From: an uncultured Hippea sp.
GTDB taxonomy: Bacteria; Campylobacterota_A; Desulfurellia; JAADFJ01
Direction: 5' to 3'
NCBI GenBank assembly: GCA_913009315.1
Contig: CAJVZA010000062.1
Location: forward strand, 1 to 11,731
Length of the DNA stretch: 11,731 nt
Below are positions 1 through 11,731 of the stretch, in pieces. How positions within the stretch are numbered: position 1 is the first letter of the stretch; every line of letters starts with the position of its first letter. The translations under genes and the position numbers were made by a program. The notes beneath the pieces are model-generated. The model was given only the letters and a program-made list of their open reading frames with translations. It was not told the DNA's origin and searched no databases.

Positions 1-95
1 TTATGCTATTTATTTTTTCTTTTTTTTTTCAAGCAGAAGACGGCATACGAGATATATCAGTGTGACTGGAGTTCAGACGTGTGCTCTTCCGATCT
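1..95 (+). other. Illumina TruSeq P7/index adapter (non-genomic contamination)
   Basis: Positions 30-53 are the complete P7 flow-cell sequence (CAAGCAGAAGACGG... ending CGAGAT). Positions 54-61 are an 8-base index, read as ACTGATAT on the other strand, which I recall as TruSeq LT index 25. Positions 62-95 are the TruSeq read-2 primer site ending GCTCTTCCGATCT. Positions 20-29 are exactly ten T, as in the T10 linker of grafted P7 oligos. Positions 1-19 are low-complexity sequence of no identifiable origin, probably poor-quality read-through. Genomic sequence starts at about 96. The adapter truncates the acyl-CoA dehydrogenase gene that enters from the right on the minus strand. Confidence 0.98.
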
Positions 96-1331
96 GATCT
101 GTTTAGTGAGCATTTTTGCTATGACTGCTCTGTTGATTTCATTTGTTCCCTCGAATATACGGAAAACGCGTTCGTCACGATAGGCGCGGGCAGCAGGGTA
201 ATCTTCCATAAATCCGTTTCCGCCGTATATCTGAAGCTCGTCATCTACAACAGATGCCAGTATGTCCGAAGCGGCCGTTTTTAAAATTGAGGATTCTTCT
301 GAGAGCACTCTCAGAATATTCATCATTTTTTTCCCGTAATCATCAGCGGTTCTATCCAGGCCGGAACAGAGTTTCTCCCACTTTCCGGCAAATCTGTATA
401 CACTCGATTCAGCAGCATATATCTGACCGGCTGCTTTGGCAAGTTTTTTCTGCGTCATACCGAAACTTGCAATCGGTCTGGCAAACTGTCGGCGTTCCTT
501 TGAATATTTTATCGCATTCATGAGATTATATTTGGCCTCTCCCATAAATGCCGCCGCGAGATCAAATCTCCCGACATCAAGAGCTGTAAGCGCTACATAA
601 TGCCCCTGATCTTCATGATACAGCATATTTTCCTTTGAAATTTTTATATCATCAAAAAAGAGTGTTGTGGTTGAAGAACCGCGAAGTCCAAGTTTGTTCT
701 CCTCTTTTCCGGTAGAAAAACCCGGCATATCTTTTTCGACAAGAAATGCGGCAAAGCTGTCGTCTAATCTTGCAAAAACCGTATAAATATCAGATATCCC
801 GCCGTTTGTAATAAATATCTTTTGACCGTTCAACAGGTAGCTGCCGTCAGATTGCTTTACCGCTCTGGTTTTCATGCCCCCCAGAGCATCGGAGCCTGCT
901 TCCGCTTCAGTCAAGGCGTAGGCTGTTACATAGTCTCCTGAACAGATTTTAGGCATAAGCCGTTTTTTCTGTTCTTCCGTTCCGTAATAAGCCAGCGGCA
1001 TTCTTCCGATTCCTATATTAACATTCCATGTAATTCCGTATGATGCCTGTCCTCCGAAAAGTTTTTCTGCAAGCACAGTATAGGAGATTTCTCCCATTCC
1101 GAGTCCGCCGTAACTTTCATCGACTCCAACAGATGTGAATCCAAGATCGGCAGCCTTTTTTATCAGTTCCCTCAAAAGGCCATGCTTCTTGGACTCAATC
1201 TCATCGGATATCGGTATAATCTCTTTGTCCATAAACTCTCTGGCACTTTTTGCCAGCAGCTTATCCTCCTGGCTTGCCTCCTCAGGTATAAACATATCAT
1301 CAGGAGACTTAACTAAAAATGATTCGCTCAT
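96..1331 (-). CDS. FadE/VLCAD-type acyl-CoA dehydrogenase, 3' end lost at the adapter
   Basis: FAD-dependent dehydrogenase that introduces the 2,3 double bond into an acyl-CoA, passing electrons to ETF. The 412 genuine residues cover the N-terminal helical, beta and C-terminal helical domains. Visible motifs are the FAD/substrate segment YALTEAEAGSDA (about residues 138-149), the NGQKIFITNG stretch (about 168-177), and RIFEGTNEINR with the catalytic Glu at about 394. The closest family resemblance is bacterial FadE (YusJ-like) and VLCAD, which run to about 590 residues, so roughly 180 C-terminal residues are probably missing. An upstream in-frame ATG at 1343 exists but falls inside the Shine-Dalgarno. 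The ATG at 1331 has GGAGG at 1337-1341 with a 5-nt spacer, and it overlaps the hydratase stop as ATGA (1328-1331), indicating translational coupling. Chain length and branching preference of the substrate cannot be read from sequence. Confidence 0.93.
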
Positions 1332-2095
1332 TTTCCCCTCCATTCGGGTTTGATTTTTTTCTTGAACGCACTCGTTCCTATTTTCAGATCCTCTGCCGCA
1401 AAATTTATAATTCTCAGCAGAGCCAAATATTTAGAATCGATCTTCTCTTCAGAAAGATCGTTTATCGCATTCATAGACAACTGCAGTACCGTTGGACTGA
1501 GAGATGCTATAGATTTTGCGATAGCCTTTGCCTTTTCAATCGGATCATCGGCAATTTCATATACAACGCCGATTCTTTTTGCTTCATTTGCATCAATGAT
1601 TTTTCTCGTTAGTGCAAGTGTCACTGCATTCCTCGCTCCGATTGCATTTTTTACATACGGAAAGATGACGTAGGGGAAAATGCCGAGCGAAAGCTCCGGC
1701 ATCCCGAATCTGCATGAAGGAGAACTCACTACGATGTGCGCACTGCAGGCGAGTCCGAATCCTCCGCCAAGTGCATAACCCTCAACTGCTGCAATCACCG
1801 GTTTGTTGATGATCTTTACTATATCAAAAACTTTAACATCTGTCTCCATGTTTTTATAATGGCCAAGCGCATCTTTTTCCAGCGCCGCCGAAAACTCGTT
1901 CAGATCGGCGCCCGAACAAAAGATATGATCCGTTCCCGCCAGTACAACAGCCCTTATGTCGTCATCTTTTGAAATATCGACAGCTTTGCTGATAAGTGCC
2001 TTTGACAGCTCGCTATCCAGCGCATTTCGTTTGTTTTTGTTTGACATAAAAATAACGGCATATCCATCGCCTTTTTCTATAATAACTTCAGACAT
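1328..2095 (-). CDS. Enoyl-CoA hydratase/isomerase family protein, methylglutaconyl-CoA-hydratase-like
   Basis: Crotonase-fold protein of 255 residues, the normal length for a single-domain family member. The oxyanion-hole segments are CSGADL (60-65) and EGYALGGGFGLA (105-116). Of the two glutamates used by rat mitochondrial enoyl-CoA hydratase, the second is kept (E134 in MPELSLG), while the position of the first is Gly114. This loss, the P-x-V-I-x-P-Y-V segment (141-148) and the C-terminal AFKKKIKPEW ending resemble the bacterial LiuC/AtuE 3-methylglutaconyl/isohexenylglutaconyl-CoA hydratase group rather than short-chain crotonase; this comparison is from memory. The start is one base after the preceding stop (TGA A ATG) and no good Shine-Dalgarno is visible, so initiation probably depends on coupling. 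The stop overlaps the next gene. A generic enoyl-CoA hydratase or isomerase role remains possible. Confidence 0.9.
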   Translation of the reverse strand: MSEVIIEKGDGYAVIFMSNKNKRNALDSELSKALISKAVDISKDDDIRAVVLAGTDHIFCSGADLNEFSAALEKDALGHYKNMETDVKVFDIVKIINKPVIAAVEGYALGGGFGLACSAHIVVSSPSCRFGMPELSLGIFPYVIFPYVKNAIGARNAVTLALTRKIIDANEAKRIGVVYEIADDPIEKAKAIAKSIASLSPTVLQLSMNAINDLSEEKIDSKYLALLRIINFAAEDLKIGTSAFKKKIKPEWRGK

Positions 2096-2096
2096 T

Positions 2097-2447
2097 TCAG
2101 GCAGGTCTTATGTGAACAGCTTTCAGCAGTGCTTCGGGCAGCTCCAGCTCTGTTGTGCTGAATATACCCCCGATCGATTTTCCAAGATTGTCGCTCCTGA
2201 GCGATCCCGAAGCTCCCCCGCCAAGTGCATCTGTAAGCAAAAATTTGAGCGCCAAAAGATTGGGTACTTCAAATCTGACAACCTTTCCATCAACAATAGA
2301 AGAAAGTGCAGACTTTACAACAGCAGGCGTCAGACTTTCTTTCAGGAAATTATATATATTTTCATTTGGAGCAAAAACCGAAACATCGGAATCGTTTGCC
2401 TTATCGCCGGAACGTACCTGCGCAATTTGATATAAAAACAGCTTCAT
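2097..2447 (-). CDS. AtuA-like C-terminal-domain (ferredoxin-fold) protein
   Basis: This 116-residue protein matches the C-terminal domain that is fused to AtuA in many genomes. Its signatures are the RSGDKAND segment (12-19) and the conserved VPNLLALKFLL...ALGGGASGSLR block (61-84). Here it is a separate gene directly after atuA: the atuA stop TAG (2448-2450) abuts its ATG (2445-2447), and its GGAGG (2453-2457, 5-nt spacer) lies in the last atuA codons. The tight arrangement implies a stoichiometric complex with AtuA. The biochemical role of the domain is not established, and nothing in the sequence (no Cys cluster, signal peptide or membrane segment) indicates a redox centre or export despite the 'ferredoxin fold' name. 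Confidence 0.88.
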   Translation of the reverse strand: MKLFLYQIAQVRSGDKANDSDVSVFAPNENIYNFLKESLTPAVVKSALSSIVDGKVVRFEVPNLLALKFLLTDALGGGASGSLRSDNLGKSIGGIFSTTELELPEALLKAVHIRPA

Positions 2448-3827
2448 CTATGCCTCCAAAATCTCTTTTGCGGTTTTGACATTGACTTTAACATCCCGCT
2501 CTATCAGCTCTCTGTCAATCAGCGCCGACCAGATGCCTATTGCCTGTCTCGGCTTAGGCGGAGCACCAAAGAAATCAGCTCCCGGAGGTCCGTCAAGTAT
2601 ATAAGCCGGAAACAGCTTTGTTACCTGCTGAGCTTCCTCTTTCGTATTAACTTTAACAGCCACACGTAGCAGAATTTCATCGGGCTCGTAGTCAGGTTCT
2701 TTGCGTTTAAGCGCACCTCCTCCTATAAATTCCGATTCATACGCAATTGGTTTTATGCCCAATATATCAAGCCGCTTTTTCATAATTTCAGCCATTGCCT
2801 TTGCCTTTCTCAAGGCATTAGGAACGCCATATAAAATTCTTCCCTCGGCAATATAGCCGTCAGGATATGCGAAAAGTGCCTTAAGCGCTGCAGGCGGCTT
2901 TTTGCCTCTGACGCCGGCTATCTTTACCCTGTTTTTCCCGATATCCGTAAGTATGGCAGAGGTAATATCGACAACACAATCGGGGCCTATGTAGTTTGAG
3001 GGATCATGTATCTCATAAAGCATCTGTTCTTTGACCGTATCAACTGATACCATTCCGCCGGTTCCCTCAGGTTTGGTGATAACGGCAGTTAAATCATCAT
3101 AGACTTCGGCTATAGGATATCCGAGCCGCTCAAGGTTCGGAATGCTTTCCCAATCACCGCTGAAGTTTCCTCCGGTTATCTGACCTCCGCATTCAAGCAG
3201 ATGTCCCAAAAGTGTTGCGAAGGCTACTTGATCTAAGTTATCGGTCTGCCAATTCATCCCCGAAAGAATAGGGCCGGCAAAAAGTGCCGGATCGGTAATG
3301 CGTCCGGCTACAACAATATCAGCGTTTCTATCAAGCGCATCTTTTACGGGAAGTGCTCCGAGATAGCAGTTTGCAAAAATTATATTGTTGAGAATTTCCT
3401 CAGGCATAGGTTCACCTGTATCGAGATTTTCAAATTTAAGTCCACTCTGTCTTAACTGTTTAATTTTACCTTTTATGTCATCGCCTGTAATGGTTGCAAT
3501 TTTAAGGTTGTCAAAATCAATCTCCTTTGCAAGCCTTGCCACTGCCTTTGCGGCTGCATTAGGATTTAGTCCGCCTGCATTTGTAACAAGCGATAATCCC
3601 CGCTCTTTGACAAAAGGAAGCAAAAGATTGGCATAAGTAATTATATCAGCGGCATACCCTTTGTCGGGATTTTTTTGTCTTGCCTTTTCCAATATTGCCA
3701 AAGTAAGTTCTGCGAGAGAATCAAATCCCATATAATCAACGTTGCCGTATTTGGCGCTCTGCAGTGCAAACCATGGATCATCACCATAAAATCCCTGCCC
3801 GGCTCCAACCCTTATAGCTTTACTCAT
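2448..3827 (-). CDS. atuA: AtuA family protein (DUF1446, acyclic terpene utilisation)
   Basis: Cytosolic protein of 459 residues matching the AtuA/DUF1446 family by the Gly-rich start IRVGAGQGFYGDDP (5-18), TNAGGLNP (82-89), VVAGRITDPALF (172-183) and LECGGQITGGNFS (211-223). In Pseudomonas, AtuA belongs to the atu cluster for citronellol/geraniol catabolism, but its reaction is unknown. Many homologues are about 590 residues because they carry a fused C-terminal domain; here that domain is the next gene. The longest frame opens at 3848, but the ATG at 3827 has AAGGAG at 3833-3838 with a 5-nt spacer, and conservation begins just after it, so I prefer 3827. A 93-bp gap separates it from the upstream dehydrogenase, with no clear promoter or terminator. 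Its partners suggest action on a branched or unsaturated acyl-CoA intermediate; that is inference. Confidence 0.9.
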   Translation of the reverse strand: MSKAIRVGAGQGFYGDDPWFALQSAKYGNVDYMGFDSLAELTLAILEKARQKNPDKGYAADIITYANLLLPFVKERGLSLVTNAGGLNPNAAAKAVARLAKEIDFDNLKIATITGDDIKGKIKQLRQSGLKFENLDTGEPMPEEILNNIIFANCYLGALPVKDALDRNADIVVAGRITDPALFAGPILSGMNWQTDNLDQVAFATLLGHLLECGGQITGGNFSGDWESIPNLERLGYPIAEVYDDLTAVITKPEGTGGMVSVDTVKEQMLYEIHDPSNYIGPDCVVDITSAILTDIGKNRVKIAGVRGKKPPAALKALFAYPDGYIAEGRILYGVPNALRKAKAMAEIMKKRLDILGIKPIAYESEFIGGGALKRKEPDYEPDEILLRVAVKVNTKEEAQQVTKLFPAYILDGPPGADFFGAPPKPRQAIGIWSALIDRELIERDVKVNVKTAKEILEA

Positions 3828-3920
3828 AAATTCTCCTTTATTTCCCATTTTTTCGTACGTTCTGCGGTTAACTCTGTCTTTCTCTCGTTTCCATGTTTCA
3901 CAACAATATTCAAACTGCTT

Positions 3921-5084
3921 TTAAAGATCATTAAATCCCTGCGCAATTCTTCTTGCAATAAGCAGCTTCATCATTTCACTTGTTCCTGCGCCTATCGCAA
4001 ACATTTTGGCATCGCGCCAATACATCTGAGGATAATAATCGGATGTATAGCCATAGCCGCCTAAAACCTGTATTGCTTCCTCTGCGCATTTAACGGCAGC
4101 CTCGGCAGATCTTATTTTTGAGATAGCTGTAGCTGTTCTTAATTTTTTGTCGCCTTTGTTTTCGTTCCAGAGATTTGCAAGCGAATATAGATATGTCCTG
4201 TTTAGCTCAAGCTCACCTAACATATAGGCTAATTTCTCCTGGACTAATTGATAGCTTATAATCGGCTTTCCAAACTGAATACGTTCTTCTGCATATTTGG
4301 CTGCAACATCAAGAGAGCCCTTCATCATTCCCAAATTTTCTCCGGAAAGGCCAATTCTCTCTGCATCAAGCCCCTCCATCATAATATGCACACCTTCCCC
4401 AACGCCGCGTAAAATATTTTCTTTCGGCACCGGTACATCATCAAAATAAACGATACCCGTAGGTGATGCTCTCATACCCATCTTATGCATCTTATCCACT
4501 GTAATTTCGTCGGACTTTTCCACCACAAAAGCCGAAACCCCAACAGATTTACCGTCTTCTATTGTATCTGCATAAACAACAAAGATATCGGCAACCGGTG
4601 CATTGGTTATAAATATCTTTTGACCTCGCAGCAGATATTTATCACCGTTTTTTATCGCTCTGGTTTTCGGATGAGCGGCATCTGAACCGCGCTCAGGTTC
4701 TGTAAGACAGATTGAAGCTATCTTTTTGCCGGAGGCTATATCAGGCAAAAATTGAGCCTTCTGCTCTTTGCTCCCTGCCCTGTTTATAACGTTTCCTGCA
4801 AGGATCGAGTGCGCTCCGAGACTCAATGCTACTGCGGGCGAGTAAACCGCCATCTCTTCCATAATTACAACCGACAGCAGGGCATCGGGGCCTATCCCGC
4901 CCAAATTAGTATCAATCATCATGCCGGTCAAACCGATATCGCCCATCTTGCCCCAAAGTTCATACGGCATGTTTTGGCTTTCATCCCATTTGAGGGTGTC
5001 TTTAAACTCTCTTTTGCAGAACTCTCTTACAGCTGTTTTCAGATCTTTTGCTTCATCAGTCAAAAGTTCATTGGAAATAAGCAT
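3921..5084 (-). CDS. Acyl-CoA dehydrogenase, isovaleryl-CoA-dehydrogenase type
   Basis: Full-length 387-residue flavin acyl-CoA dehydrogenase. Motifs: ICLTEPERGSDAA (125-137) for FAD/substrate binding, GQKIFITNA (154-162), and QVLGGYGYTSDYYPQMYWRDAK (about 339-360) in the C-terminal helical domain. The usual catalytic Glu of MCAD/SCAD (YEGT) is replaced: the sequence reads AIGAGTSE (363-370), with Ala366 at that place. Isovaleryl-CoA dehydrogenases have the same EIGAGTSE pattern and use a Glu in a different helix (LDLERL); the equivalent here is E242 in GLDAERIGLS. This supports a branched-chain (isovaleryl-type) substrate, giving a 3-methylcrotonyl-CoA-like product, but it is not proof. The ATG at 5084 is preceded by AAGGAGG (5090-5096) with a 5-nt spacer. 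It is the first gene of the minus-strand catabolic set. Confidence 0.93.
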   Translation of the reverse strand: MLISNELLTDEAKDLKTAVREFCKREFKDTLKWDESQNMPYELWGKMGDIGLTGMMIDTNLGGIGPDALLSVVIMEEMAVYSPAVALSLGAHSILAGNVINRAGSKEQKAQFLPDIASGKKIASICLTEPERGSDAAHPKTRAIKNGDKYLLRGQKIFITNAPVADIFVVYADTIEDGKSVGVSAFVVEKSDEITVDKMHKMGMRASPTGIVYFDDVPVPKENILRGVGEGVHIMMEGLDAERIGLSGENLGMMKGSLDVAAKYAEERIQFGKPIISYQLVQEKLAYMLGELELNRTYLYSLANLWNENKGDKKLRTATAISKIRSAEAAVKCAEEAIQVLGGYGYTSDYYPQMYWRDAKMFAIGAGTSEMMKLLIARRIAQGFNDL

Positions 5085-5280
5085 CCCGGCCTCCTTAATT
5101 TAAACATCCATTTTTAGAGCACGTCTATTATCTACAAACAATCATCCTGAGCCCCATACTAGTATCCTCTTTCGCTGCAAATTCCGGCAATAGTCAACTG
5201 TTATCTGCAATTTAAGCTTTGTCGGCATATTAGGACTTTCGAAGCGGAACATGCCGGAGTTAACAGAATTGTTTTTAATA
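5085..5280 (-). promoter_or_regulatory. Intergenic leader between the iclR-type gene and the acyl-CoA dehydrogenase operon
   Basis: This 196-bp gap has no ORF of note. It probably carries the promoter of the downstream operon, but no convincing -35/-10 pair was found; a minus-strand TTGACT near 5194-5199 lacks a well-spaced -10. Visible structure includes an inverted repeat CGGCAT (5223-5228) / ATGCCG (5251-5256) with a 22-nt loop, and a 10-bp palindrome ATACTAGTAT (5156-5165). Neither is followed by a T-run, so no intrinsic terminator is seen after the regulator gene and read-through from it is possible. Confidence 0.4.
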
Positions 5281-6039
5281 TTATACAAAAAGCGCCTTCA
5301 TGATTTTATCCGCACATCTTTTTACTTCAGGCATCCATTTGGCGAGTTTTTCCTGTGTAAATCTGCCCGCGGGGCCTGCCACCGAAACCGCAGCAACCGC
5401 AGTATTCTGATTATCAAGAACAGGAGCAGCCAAAGCTACAGCTCCGGAATCAGCCTCACCGAAACTGATTGTATAATGATTCTTTCTTGTCTCCTGCATT
5501 ACCTTTTTGAGCTGAGATTTATTAAAAGTTGAAGCGGTCAATTTAGAATTATGCTCAGCTATAATTTCCTCTCTTTTCTTTTCGGGCAAAAAAGCAAGTA
5601 TAGCCCTCATAGATGCTCCAACTGTAAGCGGCAGTTTTGCACCCACCGTTGTCCACAATCTTATAGCATTGGACGACTCAAGTTTTTCAAGATAAACACC
5701 ATACTTACCATCCGGAACGGTAAGATGAACTGTTTCATTGGTTAACTGCTGAAGCTCCTTCAAAAAAGGAAGTGCGACTTGGCGTATAACACTCTTCTGC
5801 CTGACCACTCCGCCTAAAACCAGCAGTTTATAGCCAAGCTGAAAACGCTTATTTGTGTCCTGAAGAATATAGCCATTCAGAACAAGACCGTTAATAAGTC
5901 TGTATACTGTTGGTTTGGGAATATCGAGCGCGGATGAAATCTCCGAAAGCGTGCAGGCTGATTCGCCGGATGCTACAAATTCCAAAATTCGCAATGCTTT
6001 CTTTAATGTTCCGGGGATTGACTTTTCCTCACCCATCAT
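5281..6039 (-). CDS. IclR-family transcriptional regulator
   Basis: Cytosolic DNA-binding regulator of 252 residues, the family's normal size. The N-terminal winged helix-turn-helix spans about 14-72, with the helix-turn-helix LSEISSALDIPKPTVYRLIN (31-50) followed by the wing KRFQLGYKLL (64-73). The IclR effector-binding domain follows (about 85-250), with TVGASMRAILAF (139-150) and the AVALAAPVLDNQN core (200-212). Two adjacent ATGs (6039 and 6036) are possible starts; GGAG at 6045-6048 is 5 nt from the first. The gene is divergent from icmF and upstream of the acyl-CoA operon on the same strand, so it probably senses an acyl-CoA or acid from this pathway and controls one or both units. The effector cannot be inferred from sequence. 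Confidence 0.93.
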   Translation of the reverse strand: MMGEEKSIPGTLKKALRILEFVASGESACTLSEISSALDIPKPTVYRLINGLVLNGYILQDTNKRFQLGYKLLVLGGVVRQKSVIRQVALPFLKELQQLTNETVHLTVPDGKYGVYLEKLESSNAIRLWTTVGAKLPLTVGASMRAILAFLPEKKREEIIAEHNSKLTASTFNKSQLKKVMQETRKNHYTISFGEADSGAVALAAPVLDNQNTAVAAVSVAGPAGRFTQEKLAKWMPEVKRCADKIMKALFV

Positions 6040-6048
6040 ATATTCTCC

Positions 6049-6075
6049 ATATATTGAAATATAATTTCACTATAT
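6049..6075. promoter_or_regulatory. 27-bp inverted repeat, probable IclR-type operator
   Basis: The repeat is centred on 6062 with core TGAAAT-ATA-ATTTCA (6055-6069). Symmetry extends to 6049 and 6075 with only one mismatched pair (6054/6070). It lies between the divergent regulator and icmF starts and overlaps -10 elements on both strands. This is the expected position for an operator that autorepresses the regulator and controls icmF. Binding by the neighbouring IclR protein is inferred from position and symmetry. Confidence 0.65.
6060..6065 (+). promoter_or_regulatory. Candidate -10 element for icmF
   Basis: A perfect TATAAT lies in the centre of the inverted repeat on the plus strand. 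No good -35 lies 16-18 bp upstream, so the promoter may be weak or need activation. It would give a leader of about 35 nt before the ATG at 6108. The call is tentative because the region is AT-rich. Confidence 0.35.
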
Positions 6076-6096
6076 AGAAAGATACTCTGCTGTCAA
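6069..6096 (-). promoter_or_regulatory. Sigma70-type promoter of the iclR-type gene
   Basis: On the minus strand there is a perfect TTGACA -35 (6091-6096) and a TATAGT -10 (6069-6074) separated by 16 bp. The -10 lies inside the 27-bp inverted repeat, and the -35 abuts the icmF ribosome binding site. Transcription would begin near 6062 and give a short leader before the ATG at 6039. Confidence 0.65.
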
Positions 6097-6107
6097 GAGG
6101 AGGAAAT

Positions 6108-9100
6108 ATGGAAAATGAAAAACCGGCGCGGTTTATAACGGCAACAAGTCTTTTCGACGGTCATGACGCAGCAATCAATATTATAAGAAGAGAACTTGTT
6201 TTAGGAGGAGCGGAAGTAATTCATCTTGCGCACAATCGTTCTGTAGAAGAGATCGTATCGGCAGCAGTAGATGAAGATGCAGATGCAGTTTCAATAAGCT
6301 CTTATCAGGGCGGACATATAGAATTTTTTAAATACATTGTAGATCTGGCAAAAGCAAAAGGCAGAAGCGATCTTAAAATATTCGGAGGCGGAGGAGGAGT
6401 AATTATTCCGCGTGAAATTAAAGAATTAGAGAAATACGGTGTAACAAAGCTGTTTTCCCCAGAAGACGGAATCAAGATGGGTCTCGAAGGAATGGCTTCA
6501 TATATGATCGAAAAGGCAGAAGAACGACCCAAACGATATGATATAACAAAGCTTATAAAAACAATAAAAAAGAGAGGTTCAGCGGCAAGACTTATAACTG
6601 TCCTTGAAGACAATATAGACATGGAAAGAAAAGCTGTCGAAATTCTCGATGCTCTTCCGCCGCCTGAAAAGGAAATTCCCGTAATTGGAATTACCGGAAC
6701 CGGAGGTTCGGGAAAAAGCAGCTTTATCGACGAGGTGTTAAGCAGACTAATCGAGGACAGCTCTTTGAATATAGCGGTTCTTGCGGTTGATCCGAGCAGA
6801 AGGAAAACCGGAGGCGCCCTTCTCGGCGACAGGATAAGAATAAATTCGCTTACGTATAACGCCGAACGGATATTTTTCAGAAGTATTGCGACAAGAATGA
6901 GCAATCTGGCGATTTCACCGGCAATAAAATATGGAATAGCGCTTTTGAAATCAGCAGGATTTGATCTGATTATTGTGGAAACCTCCGGTATCGGACAAAG
7001 CGACACGGAAATTGTGGATCTGGTGGATTATTCCATATACCTTATGACAAGCGAATACGGAGCTCCGATGCAGCTTGAGAAAATCGGTATGCTCGATTAT
7101 GCGGATACGATAATTATAAACAAGTTCGATAAGGCAGGCTCCGAAGATGCATTGCTTGCGGTAAGAAAAATAATATCAAGACGATTCAATGATAAGAAAC
7201 TTGAGGAACTTCCGGTATATCCCGCAATCTCAAGTCAGTTCAACGATTTGGGAGTAAACAGATTTTACCGTTATCTTCTCAGATACATTAATGATTTCGG
7301 GTATAATATAAAAAGCAGCAGAAAAGAAGGCAGTCCTCATATAAATCCCATTATACCTGCAGGCAGAAAAGATTATCTTCACAGAATTGTTGAAACGGTA
7401 AAAGATTATATTGATGAAGCGGAAACACAAGCAGATAAGGCGAGCGAGCTTTTCAGAATAGAAGGGGCGCTTGCACAGGTTAAAAACAGAAAGGAGCTCG
7501 AACAACTGCGGGATAAAAAGAAAACCGGGTTGGCGACTGAAAACCGGAAACTCATAGATGAATTTGATGATCTTGTGAACAAATATCAGAAGCCTCAATA
7601 CAGCTACTTTGTTAGAGGAAGAGAGATAAAAACCGAGCTGTTCGACAAAACATTGTCGGGAACCGCTGTTCCAAAAATAGCTGTGCCGCAATTCAGGGAC
7701 TGGGGAGATATTCTTTTGTGGAGAAAAATAGAAAATTTCCCCGGAATGTTTCCATATACCTCCGGAGTTTTTCAGTTCAAAAGGACATCCACCGAAATGC
7801 CGACCCGAATGTTTGCCGGAGAGGGAACACCGGAGCGGACCAACAGACGATTCCATCTTCTTGCAAAAGCGCAGCCGGCCAAACGGCTCTCGGTTGCATT
7901 TGACTCGGTTTCTCTGTATGGAGAAGACCCGGGCAAAAGCCCCGATATTTATGGTAAAATCGGTAATTCCGGTGTATCGATAGCCACATTGGATGATATG
8001 AAAAAATTGTTCAGCGGATTTGATCTTACCGATCCGATGACTTCCGTATCAATGACAATCAACGGACCTGCCCCGGCAATGCTTGCAATGTTCTTTAATA
8101 CAGCTATCAGCCAAAATATAGAAAAATTTGAAAAGCGTAACGGCAGGATGCCGACAGCAGAAGAAGAATCAAAAATTTATGATGAAACTCTCAAGAATGT
8201 CAGAGGAACCGTTCAGGCAGATATTTTGAAAGAGGATCAGGCGCAGAATACCTGTCTTTTTTCTACAGATTTCTCCTTAAGACTGATGGCAGATATTCAG
8301 GAATATTTTATAGAGCACGAGATAAGAAACTATTATTCGGTTTCAATATCAGGCTATCATATCGCAGAGGCCGGAGCAAACCCCATAACTCAGATTGCCC
8401 TGACGCTCGCAAACGGCTTTACATATGTTGAAAGTTATATTGCAAGGGGTATGGAAATCGATAAGTTTGCAAGAAATCTATCGTTTTTTTTCTCTAACGG
8501 TATGGATGCGGAATATTCCGTAATTGGAAGAGTGGCGCGATTTATCTGGGCAATAGCTATGAAATATTACTACGGCGCAGCAGAACGAAGTCAAAAACTT
8601 AAGTATCATATACAGACGTCCGGAAGATCGCTCCATGAACGGGAAATACAGTTTAATGACATTAGAACAACGCTCCAGGCATTGCTGGCAATAGCCGATA
8701 ACTGCAACTCTCTTCATACAAACGCCTATGATGAAGCCATAACAACACCGACGGAAGAATCGGTAAGAAGGGCACTGGCAATCCAGCTTATTATCAATAA
8801 AGAGTTCGGTATGATGAAAAACGAAAATCCAAACTCAGGATCATTCATAATAAACAAGCTTTTTTTTGATCTGTTAGAGGCGACGCTCAAAGAATTTGAA
8901 ACGATTAATCAGAGAGGCGGTGTATTAGGTGCTATGGAAACCGGCTATCAGCGTGCCAAAATTCAGGGTGAATCACTTTATTATGAAGAAAAGAAACAAA
9001 CGGGAGAATTACCGATAACCGGGGTTAACTATTTTCTGTCAAATAAGCCGGAATCGATATCCGGAGAACTGATACGTTCTACCGAAGAAGAAAAACAGTC

Positions 9101-9296
9101 TCAACTTGATAACCTGAACAGATTTAAGGCAAGGCATAAATTGGATTCGGCAGCCGCATTAAAAAGATTGAAAAAGGTAATACTTGGCGGGGGAAACAGT
9201 TTTGAAGAGCTTATAAAAACCGTTAGGGTTGCTACGCTGGGTGAGATTACCAATGCACTTTTCGAAGTAGGCGGCAGTTATAGAAGAAATATGTAG
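6108..9296 (+). CDS. icmF: Fused isobutyryl-CoA mutase (B12 domain, G-protein chaperone, mutase)
   Basis: Adenosylcobalamin-dependent isomerase of 1062 residues (family about 1,090) interconverting isobutyryl-CoA and n-butyryl-CoA. Order: the B12-binding domain (about 8-135) has the base-off ligand His19 in FDGHDAA and the GGGGGV loop (93-98). The MeaB-like GTPase (about 190-400) has a P-loop GTGGSGKS (197-204), ETSGIGQSD (291-299) and NKFD (338-341). A linker (about 400-520) follows, then the mutase TIM-barrel domain (about 530-1062). The residues that separate IcmF from methylmalonyl-CoA mutase are IcmF-like: Phe555 in TSGVFQFKR replaces the mutase Tyr, and Gln713 in EDQAQNT replaces the carboxylate-binding Arg. 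His751 (SGYH) is kept. AGGAGG (6098-6103) precedes the ATG. Known homologues also act on isovaleryl/pivalyl-CoA, so that use is possible. The attached G domain should gate cofactor loading and repair. Confidence 0.96.
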   Translation: MENEKPARFITATSLFDGHDAAINIIRRELVLGGAEVIHLAHNRSVEEIVSAAVDEDADAVSISSYQGGHIEFFKYIVDLAKAKGRSDLKIFGGGGGVIIPREIKELEKYGVTKLFSPEDGIKMGLEGMASYMIEKAEERPKRYDITKLIKTIKKRGSAARLITVLEDNIDMERKAVEILDALPPPEKEIPVIGITGTGGSGKSSFIDEVLSRLIEDSSLNIAVLAVDPSRRKTGGALLGDRIRINSLTYNAERIFFRSIATRMSNLAISPAIKYGIALLKSAGFDLIIVETSGIGQSDTEIVDLVDYSIYLMTSEYGAPMQLEKIGMLDYADTIIINKFDKAGSEDALLAVRKIISRRFNDKKLEELPVYPAISSQFNDLGVNRFYRYLLRYINDFGYNIKSSRKEGSPHINPIIPAGRKDYLHRIVETVKDYIDEAETQADKASELFRIEGALAQVKNRKELEQLRDKKKTGLATENRKLIDEFDDLVNKYQKPQYSYFVRGREIKTELFDKTLSGTAVPKIAVPQFRDWGDILLWRKIENFPGMFPYTSGVFQFKRTSTEMPTRMFAGEGTPERTNRRFHLLAKAQPAKRLSVAFDSVSLYGEDPGKSPDIYGKIGNSGVSIATLDDMKKLFSGFDLTDPMTSVSMTINGPAPAMLAMFFNTAISQNIEKFEKRNGRMPTAEEESKIYDETLKNVRGTVQADILKEDQAQNTCLFSTDFSLRLMADIQEYFIEHEIRNYYSVSISGYHIAEAGANPITQIALTLANGFTYVESYIARGMEIDKFARNLSFFFSNGMDAEYSVIGRVARFIWAIAMKYYYGAAERSQKLKYHIQTSGRSLHEREIQFNDIRTTLQALLAIADNCNSLHTNAYDEAITTPTEESVRRALAIQLIINKEFGMMKNENPNSGSFIINKLFFDLLEATLKEFETINQRGGVLGAMETGYQRAKIQGESLYYEEKKQTGELPITGVNYFLSNKPESISGELIRSTEEEKQSQLDNLNRFKARHKLDSAAALKRLKKVILGGGNSFEELIKTVRVATLGEITNALFEVGGSYRRNM

Positions 9297-11332: not shown

Positions 11333-11382
11333 AGACCGCTGCACAGTAAACAGATTCACAGCTGCTTATTGTGCAGTGGTCT
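11333..11382. repeat. Strong stem-loop with 17-bp arms
   Basis: The left arm AGACCGCTGCACAGTAA (11333-11349) pairs with the right arm TTATTGTGCAGTGGTCT (11366-11382) over 17 bp, of which two pairs are G-U in RNA and the rest are Watson-Crick. The loop is 16 nt. No T-run follows, so it is not a typical intrinsic terminator. It could be the end structure of a small mobile or REP-like element, a protein-binding palindrome or an RNA hairpin. Confidence 0.7.
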
Positions 11383-11395
11383 CACAGTGGTCTCA
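11374..11395 (+). repeat. Perfect tandem 11-bp duplication
   Basis: CAGTGGTCTCA occurs twice back to back (11374-11384 and 11385-11395). The first copy includes the outer half of the right stem arm, so the left arm could pair over about 9 bp with either copy. It looks like a slippage duplication or a target-site-type repeat. Confidence 0.75.
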
Positions 11396-11731
11396 TTATG
11401 AAAGCAGCAGAATTCAAAAGGCATAACGGAGCGGCCGGCAAAGCAGATGCAGCATATAAAAGTTAAAATGCAGGAAGGATGTTAAAGAATATGATGAAAA
11501 TTATAACTTTATCTATATTCTTATGATCGGTTCAAGGACACCATGCCTCGATGTCGTAAAAAAAACTGCAGACAATGACTTAAAAAATCTTTTTTGACAT
11601 TTAACCGATCTTCAACCATAAAGTCAATATAATCTCCTACAGTTAACAGATTATTTAAAAAGTTCTATACTACAATCGGTACATTCAGTTTCTTGATTCC
11701 GTACAAGTTCAATATCCTCTTTTGTTCTTCC

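Follow-up and report, generated by a model that had tools for sequence, protein, structure and literature searches.

The first 95 nt of contig C62 are, with near certainty, untrimmed library sequence: sequencing ran through an Illumina adapter at the end of the contig, and the acyl-CoA dehydrogenase gene that appears to end there, a bacterial gene for the breakdown of fat, continues on contig C78 of this genome. The contig, 11,731 nt in length and referred to as the window in the following, is one of 96 contigs of a 1.74-Mb genome (G000). Our reading draws directly on the identity, position and orientation of the adapter sequence, on the index common to the affected contig ends, on intact orthologues in congeners and on the continuation of the gene on C78.

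Adapter sequence and its boundaries

In an exact pattern search, window positions 30-95 of the plus strand matched the pattern of P7 (24 nt), eight variable bases (N8) and the read-2 adapter (34 nt) at 66 of 66 positions, with zero mismatches. The pattern was not recovered in any of 200 shuffled sequences, and a chance similarity to the adapter was rejected on these grounds. This agrees with the initial annotation, which had recognized a full Illumina P7, index and read-2 adapter in these bases. The P7 flow-cell sequence (exact pattern match) occupies positions 30-53 and is followed by the 8-base index at 54-61, which reads ATATCAGT on the plus strand and ACTGATAT on the minus strand, and by the read-2 adapter GTGACTGGAGTTCAGACGTGTGCTCTTCCGATCT at 62-95, again an exact match. 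We take the index to be TruSeq index 25 (ACTGAT plus a trailing AT).

The complete P7, index and read-2 adapter are preceded by 29 T-rich bases at the very start of the window. On the minus strand, the left end reads from genomic sequence into the read-2 adapter, the index ACTGATAT, P7 and finally AAAAAAAAAAGAAAAAATAAATAGCATAA, which corresponds to the orientation from insert through read-2 adapter, index and P7 to the end of the contig. The terminal AAAAAAAAAAGAAAAAATAAATAGCATAA (positions 1-29, minus strand, 79% A) consists of an A-run followed by A-rich noise. An A-run after the adapter is the usual outcome when a short library molecule ends before the read does. The artefact had originally been limited to positions 30-95; these bases are indeed artificial, but so is the read-through tail at 1-29, and it is confirmed that positions 1-95 should be trimmed as a whole. 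No second adapter was found at the right end of the window, and no adapter 12-mer elsewhere in it.

The junction between genome and adapter lies exactly at 95/96. Up to ...KQI (CAGATC) the window is in frame with the congener G001; beyond this point G001 reads ...CTTACTAAGCAGATC-GTAAAGGGT, while the window reads ...CTCACTAAACAGATC-AGATCGGAAGAG. The bases GATCT at 96-100 are genomic, though they have the same letters as the last five bases of the adapter. We rejected the idea of a second, partial adapter at this place, as the same CAGATC is present in G001.

At the right end, the last 127 bases (11605-11731) are identical in sequence to the end of contig C41 and represent an assembler k-mer common to both contigs, not adapter. 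Such an exact common end would fit SPAdes or another de Bruijn assembler run at k=127; other contigs from the sequencing run DRR093004 (see below) bear SPAdes-style NODE names. The preceding stretch, 11397-11605, has 93% identity to positions 1558-1767 of contig C37, and the right end as a whole (11397-11731) sits in a repeat. A short palindromic element is located at 11333-11384, with a strong hairpin (17-bp stem) at about 11333-11382. Copies resembling it are present at dozens of places in the genome and in that of G001, often on both strands, and we regard it as a REP- or MITE-like dispersed repeat.

The truncated acyl-CoA dehydrogenase gene and its false C-terminus

The open reading frame at 57-1343 of the minus strand runs through the adapter and ends with IRSEEHTSELQSH, followed by a TGA stop at 57-59. 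Its translation reproduced exactly what the initial annotation had described, a dehydrogenase frame reading into the adapter and gaining an artefact tail before a chance stop. The genuine 5' part of the gene comprises 416 codons (96-1343, minus strand), as judged from its Pfam domains and its identity to G001, and the remainder is not on the contig. In this 416-residue fragment, the N-terminal, middle and C-terminal domains (PF02771, PF02770 and PF00441) all score above the Pfam gathering thresholds. The segment at 57-95 (minus strand), in contrast, encodes the tail RSEEHTSELQSH and the chance TGA stop, both arising from adapter and index, and the tail recurs at other contig ends of the genome. 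At the sequence level, RSEEHTSELQSH is confirmed as translated adapter, a 12-residue false tail without biological meaning. No paper with this peptide turned up in the literature searched.

In the congener G001 the gene is uninterrupted and free of adapter, encoding 561 aa with 97% identity over the common part, and in G002 (559 aa, 90% identity) it likewise continues beyond the breakpoint without adapter. None of the six relatives tested carries the adapter; it is absent at the orthologous site, where G001 continues as genome. A search of the window's own genome located residues 30-145 of the missing stretch on C78 (positions 2-349, 93% identity). C62 and C78 align to one and the same G001 contig with 93% and 94% identity, respectively; in the fetched G001 stretch C62 ends at 2748 and C78 starts at 2835, so that the missing C-terminus lies across a gap of 86 nt. 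The C-terminus of the annotated frame is false, as had been proposed.

Since the intact gene of the congeners encodes 559-561 aa, about 145 residues are missing, and the true protein is longer by this number (416 of about 561 residues present). The initial annotation was right in expecting a longer gene, but its figure of about 180 residues is too high for this lineage: the closest relatives give about 145, though the Bacillus FadE profile, with 173, comes near it. In that profile, NF058590 (586 positions), which is the best NCBIfam match of the genuine part, positions 7-413 are aligned and 173 are left. With their C-terminal extension beyond the core domain, the congeners' proteins resemble the long-type (FadE-like, VLCAD-like) acyl-CoA dehydrogenases. 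Against the Bacillus-type FadE profile the truncated protein scores 466.3 bits, with a curated cut-off of 600, and is therefore not assigned to the NF058590 family.

The region 1328-9296 is predicted to be a cluster for acyl-CoA catabolism. It contains genes for an enoyl-CoA hydratase, AtuA, an AtuA ferredoxin-like protein, a second acyl-CoA dehydrogenase and an IclR-type regulator, as well as a divergent gene for the fused isobutyryl-CoA mutase IcmF (NF045497, 1614 bits vs. a cut-off of 1500).

Adapter ends in the same genome and in other MAGs

Among the 96 contigs we found 29 adapter ends, 16 of the P7 side and 13 of the P5 side. All 29 matches are located no more than 180 bases from a contig end and point outward, and each is joined to a different genomic sequence. 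Every complete P7-side adapter carries one common index, and nearly every complete adapter is followed by an A-run. The P5-side adapters (L017-L029) occur in two forms, ending in GTATCATT or GTAGCATT; the difference of one base may stem from an oligo or sequencing error. At six of the 29 ends, the longest frame is one of at least 100 codons that reaches up to or into the adapter. The tails at such ends include RSEEHTSELQS(H), KIGRAHV, RSEERRVGKECRSRWSP and QIGRASCRERV, and one of the six frames stops right at the junction between genome and adapter.

We recovered the identical 66-mer, index included, from at least 119 stretches in 11 MAGs of unrelated phyla; the labels of these assemblies include Gemmatimonadetes, Acidimicrobiia, Gammaproteobacteria and Deferribacteres. 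Within one library, the same index is joined to unrelated genomic sequences, and among the matches listed, every stretch with the 66-mer goes back to the run DRR093004. In the other MAGs of this run, 120 of 126 adapters are followed by an A-run, and the remaining six end no more than 5 bases past the adapter. DRR093004 is a metagenome from inactive deep-sea massive sulfide deposits of the Southern Mariana Trough (PMC6946796). As judged from the common index, the window probably stems from this run as well, index 25 not being unique to one laboratory.

Two further MAGs from the run have complete adapters with A-runs well inside contigs, at 4031-4096 in L106 and at 5839 in L152; beyond them the sequence continues for 1.1 kb and at least 2.1 kb, respectively. 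These adapters may join unrelated pieces and could represent false joins. Further, 16 phage records (MK249308, LC768500, KY442063 and others) show 90-100% identity to the whole adapter or part of it. In several of them the adapter-like sequence is located at the end of the record, and in one Stenotrophomonas phage record a hypothetical protein is annotated over it. No plasmid record with sequence similar to the 66-mer was found, and a general literature search on adapter contamination returned nothing on point.

Adapter read-through and its consequences

The structure of the contig end suggests how it could have originated. A library molecule with an insert ending in the acyl-CoA dehydrogenase gene would have been shorter than the read, so that the read, having passed the read-2 adapter, the index and P7, left the molecule and produced the A-run and noise seen at bases 29-1. 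Short inserts combined with long reads and a lack of adapter trimming would bring junctions between genome and adapter into the assembly graph. At the 86-nt assembly hole, the adapter-bearing read may have been the sole extension, and we infer that a k=127 de Bruijn assembler kept the junction as a contig end because nothing competes at a coverage hole. The gene caller would then read the gene into the adapter and halt at the chance stop, resulting in RSEEHTSELQSH. An exact P7-index-read-2 sequence at a contig terminus, its outward orientation, the A-run and one index across the run are what is known from Illumina TruSeq adapter read-through; there is no difference in kind, and the genome is heavily affected. 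We found no evidence against this explanation.

One could consider instead that two genomic pieces were joined through the adapter by a chimeric or adapter-dimer ligation. Internal adapters of this kind are present in DRR093004, in L106 (4031-4096) and L152 (5839), but in the window only 29 A-rich bases lie past the adapter, without a second genomic piece, which makes such an origin very improbable here. Even harder to believe is a genuinely short acyl-CoA dehydrogenase gene, in which bases 1-95 would be native DNA resembling the adapter by chance. It is true that the open frame crosses the region and that the core dehydrogenase domains are complete. However, native DNA at 1-95 is refuted by the exact 66-base match, by the same 66-mer in unrelated taxa of one run, by the missing segment on C78 and by the junction in G001, and the congeners' proteins of 559-561 aa have a different continuation.

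Read-through at the contig end is a common assembly artefact and not biology, and the feature is nothing novel. What it offers in practice is an exact position at which to trim and a probable source run that is now identified. Very probably nothing of biological interest lies behind it, and at most it bears on the number of false ends, adapters inside contigs included, among the public MAGs from DRR093004 and their predicted proteins. The matter is one of data hygiene only: at least 11 public MAGs contain contigs ending in the adapters of one library, and the false tails encoded by these adapters (RSEEHTSELQSH, RSEERRVGKECRSRWSP, DRKSTRLNSSH...) could pass for a C-terminal motif common to several phyla.
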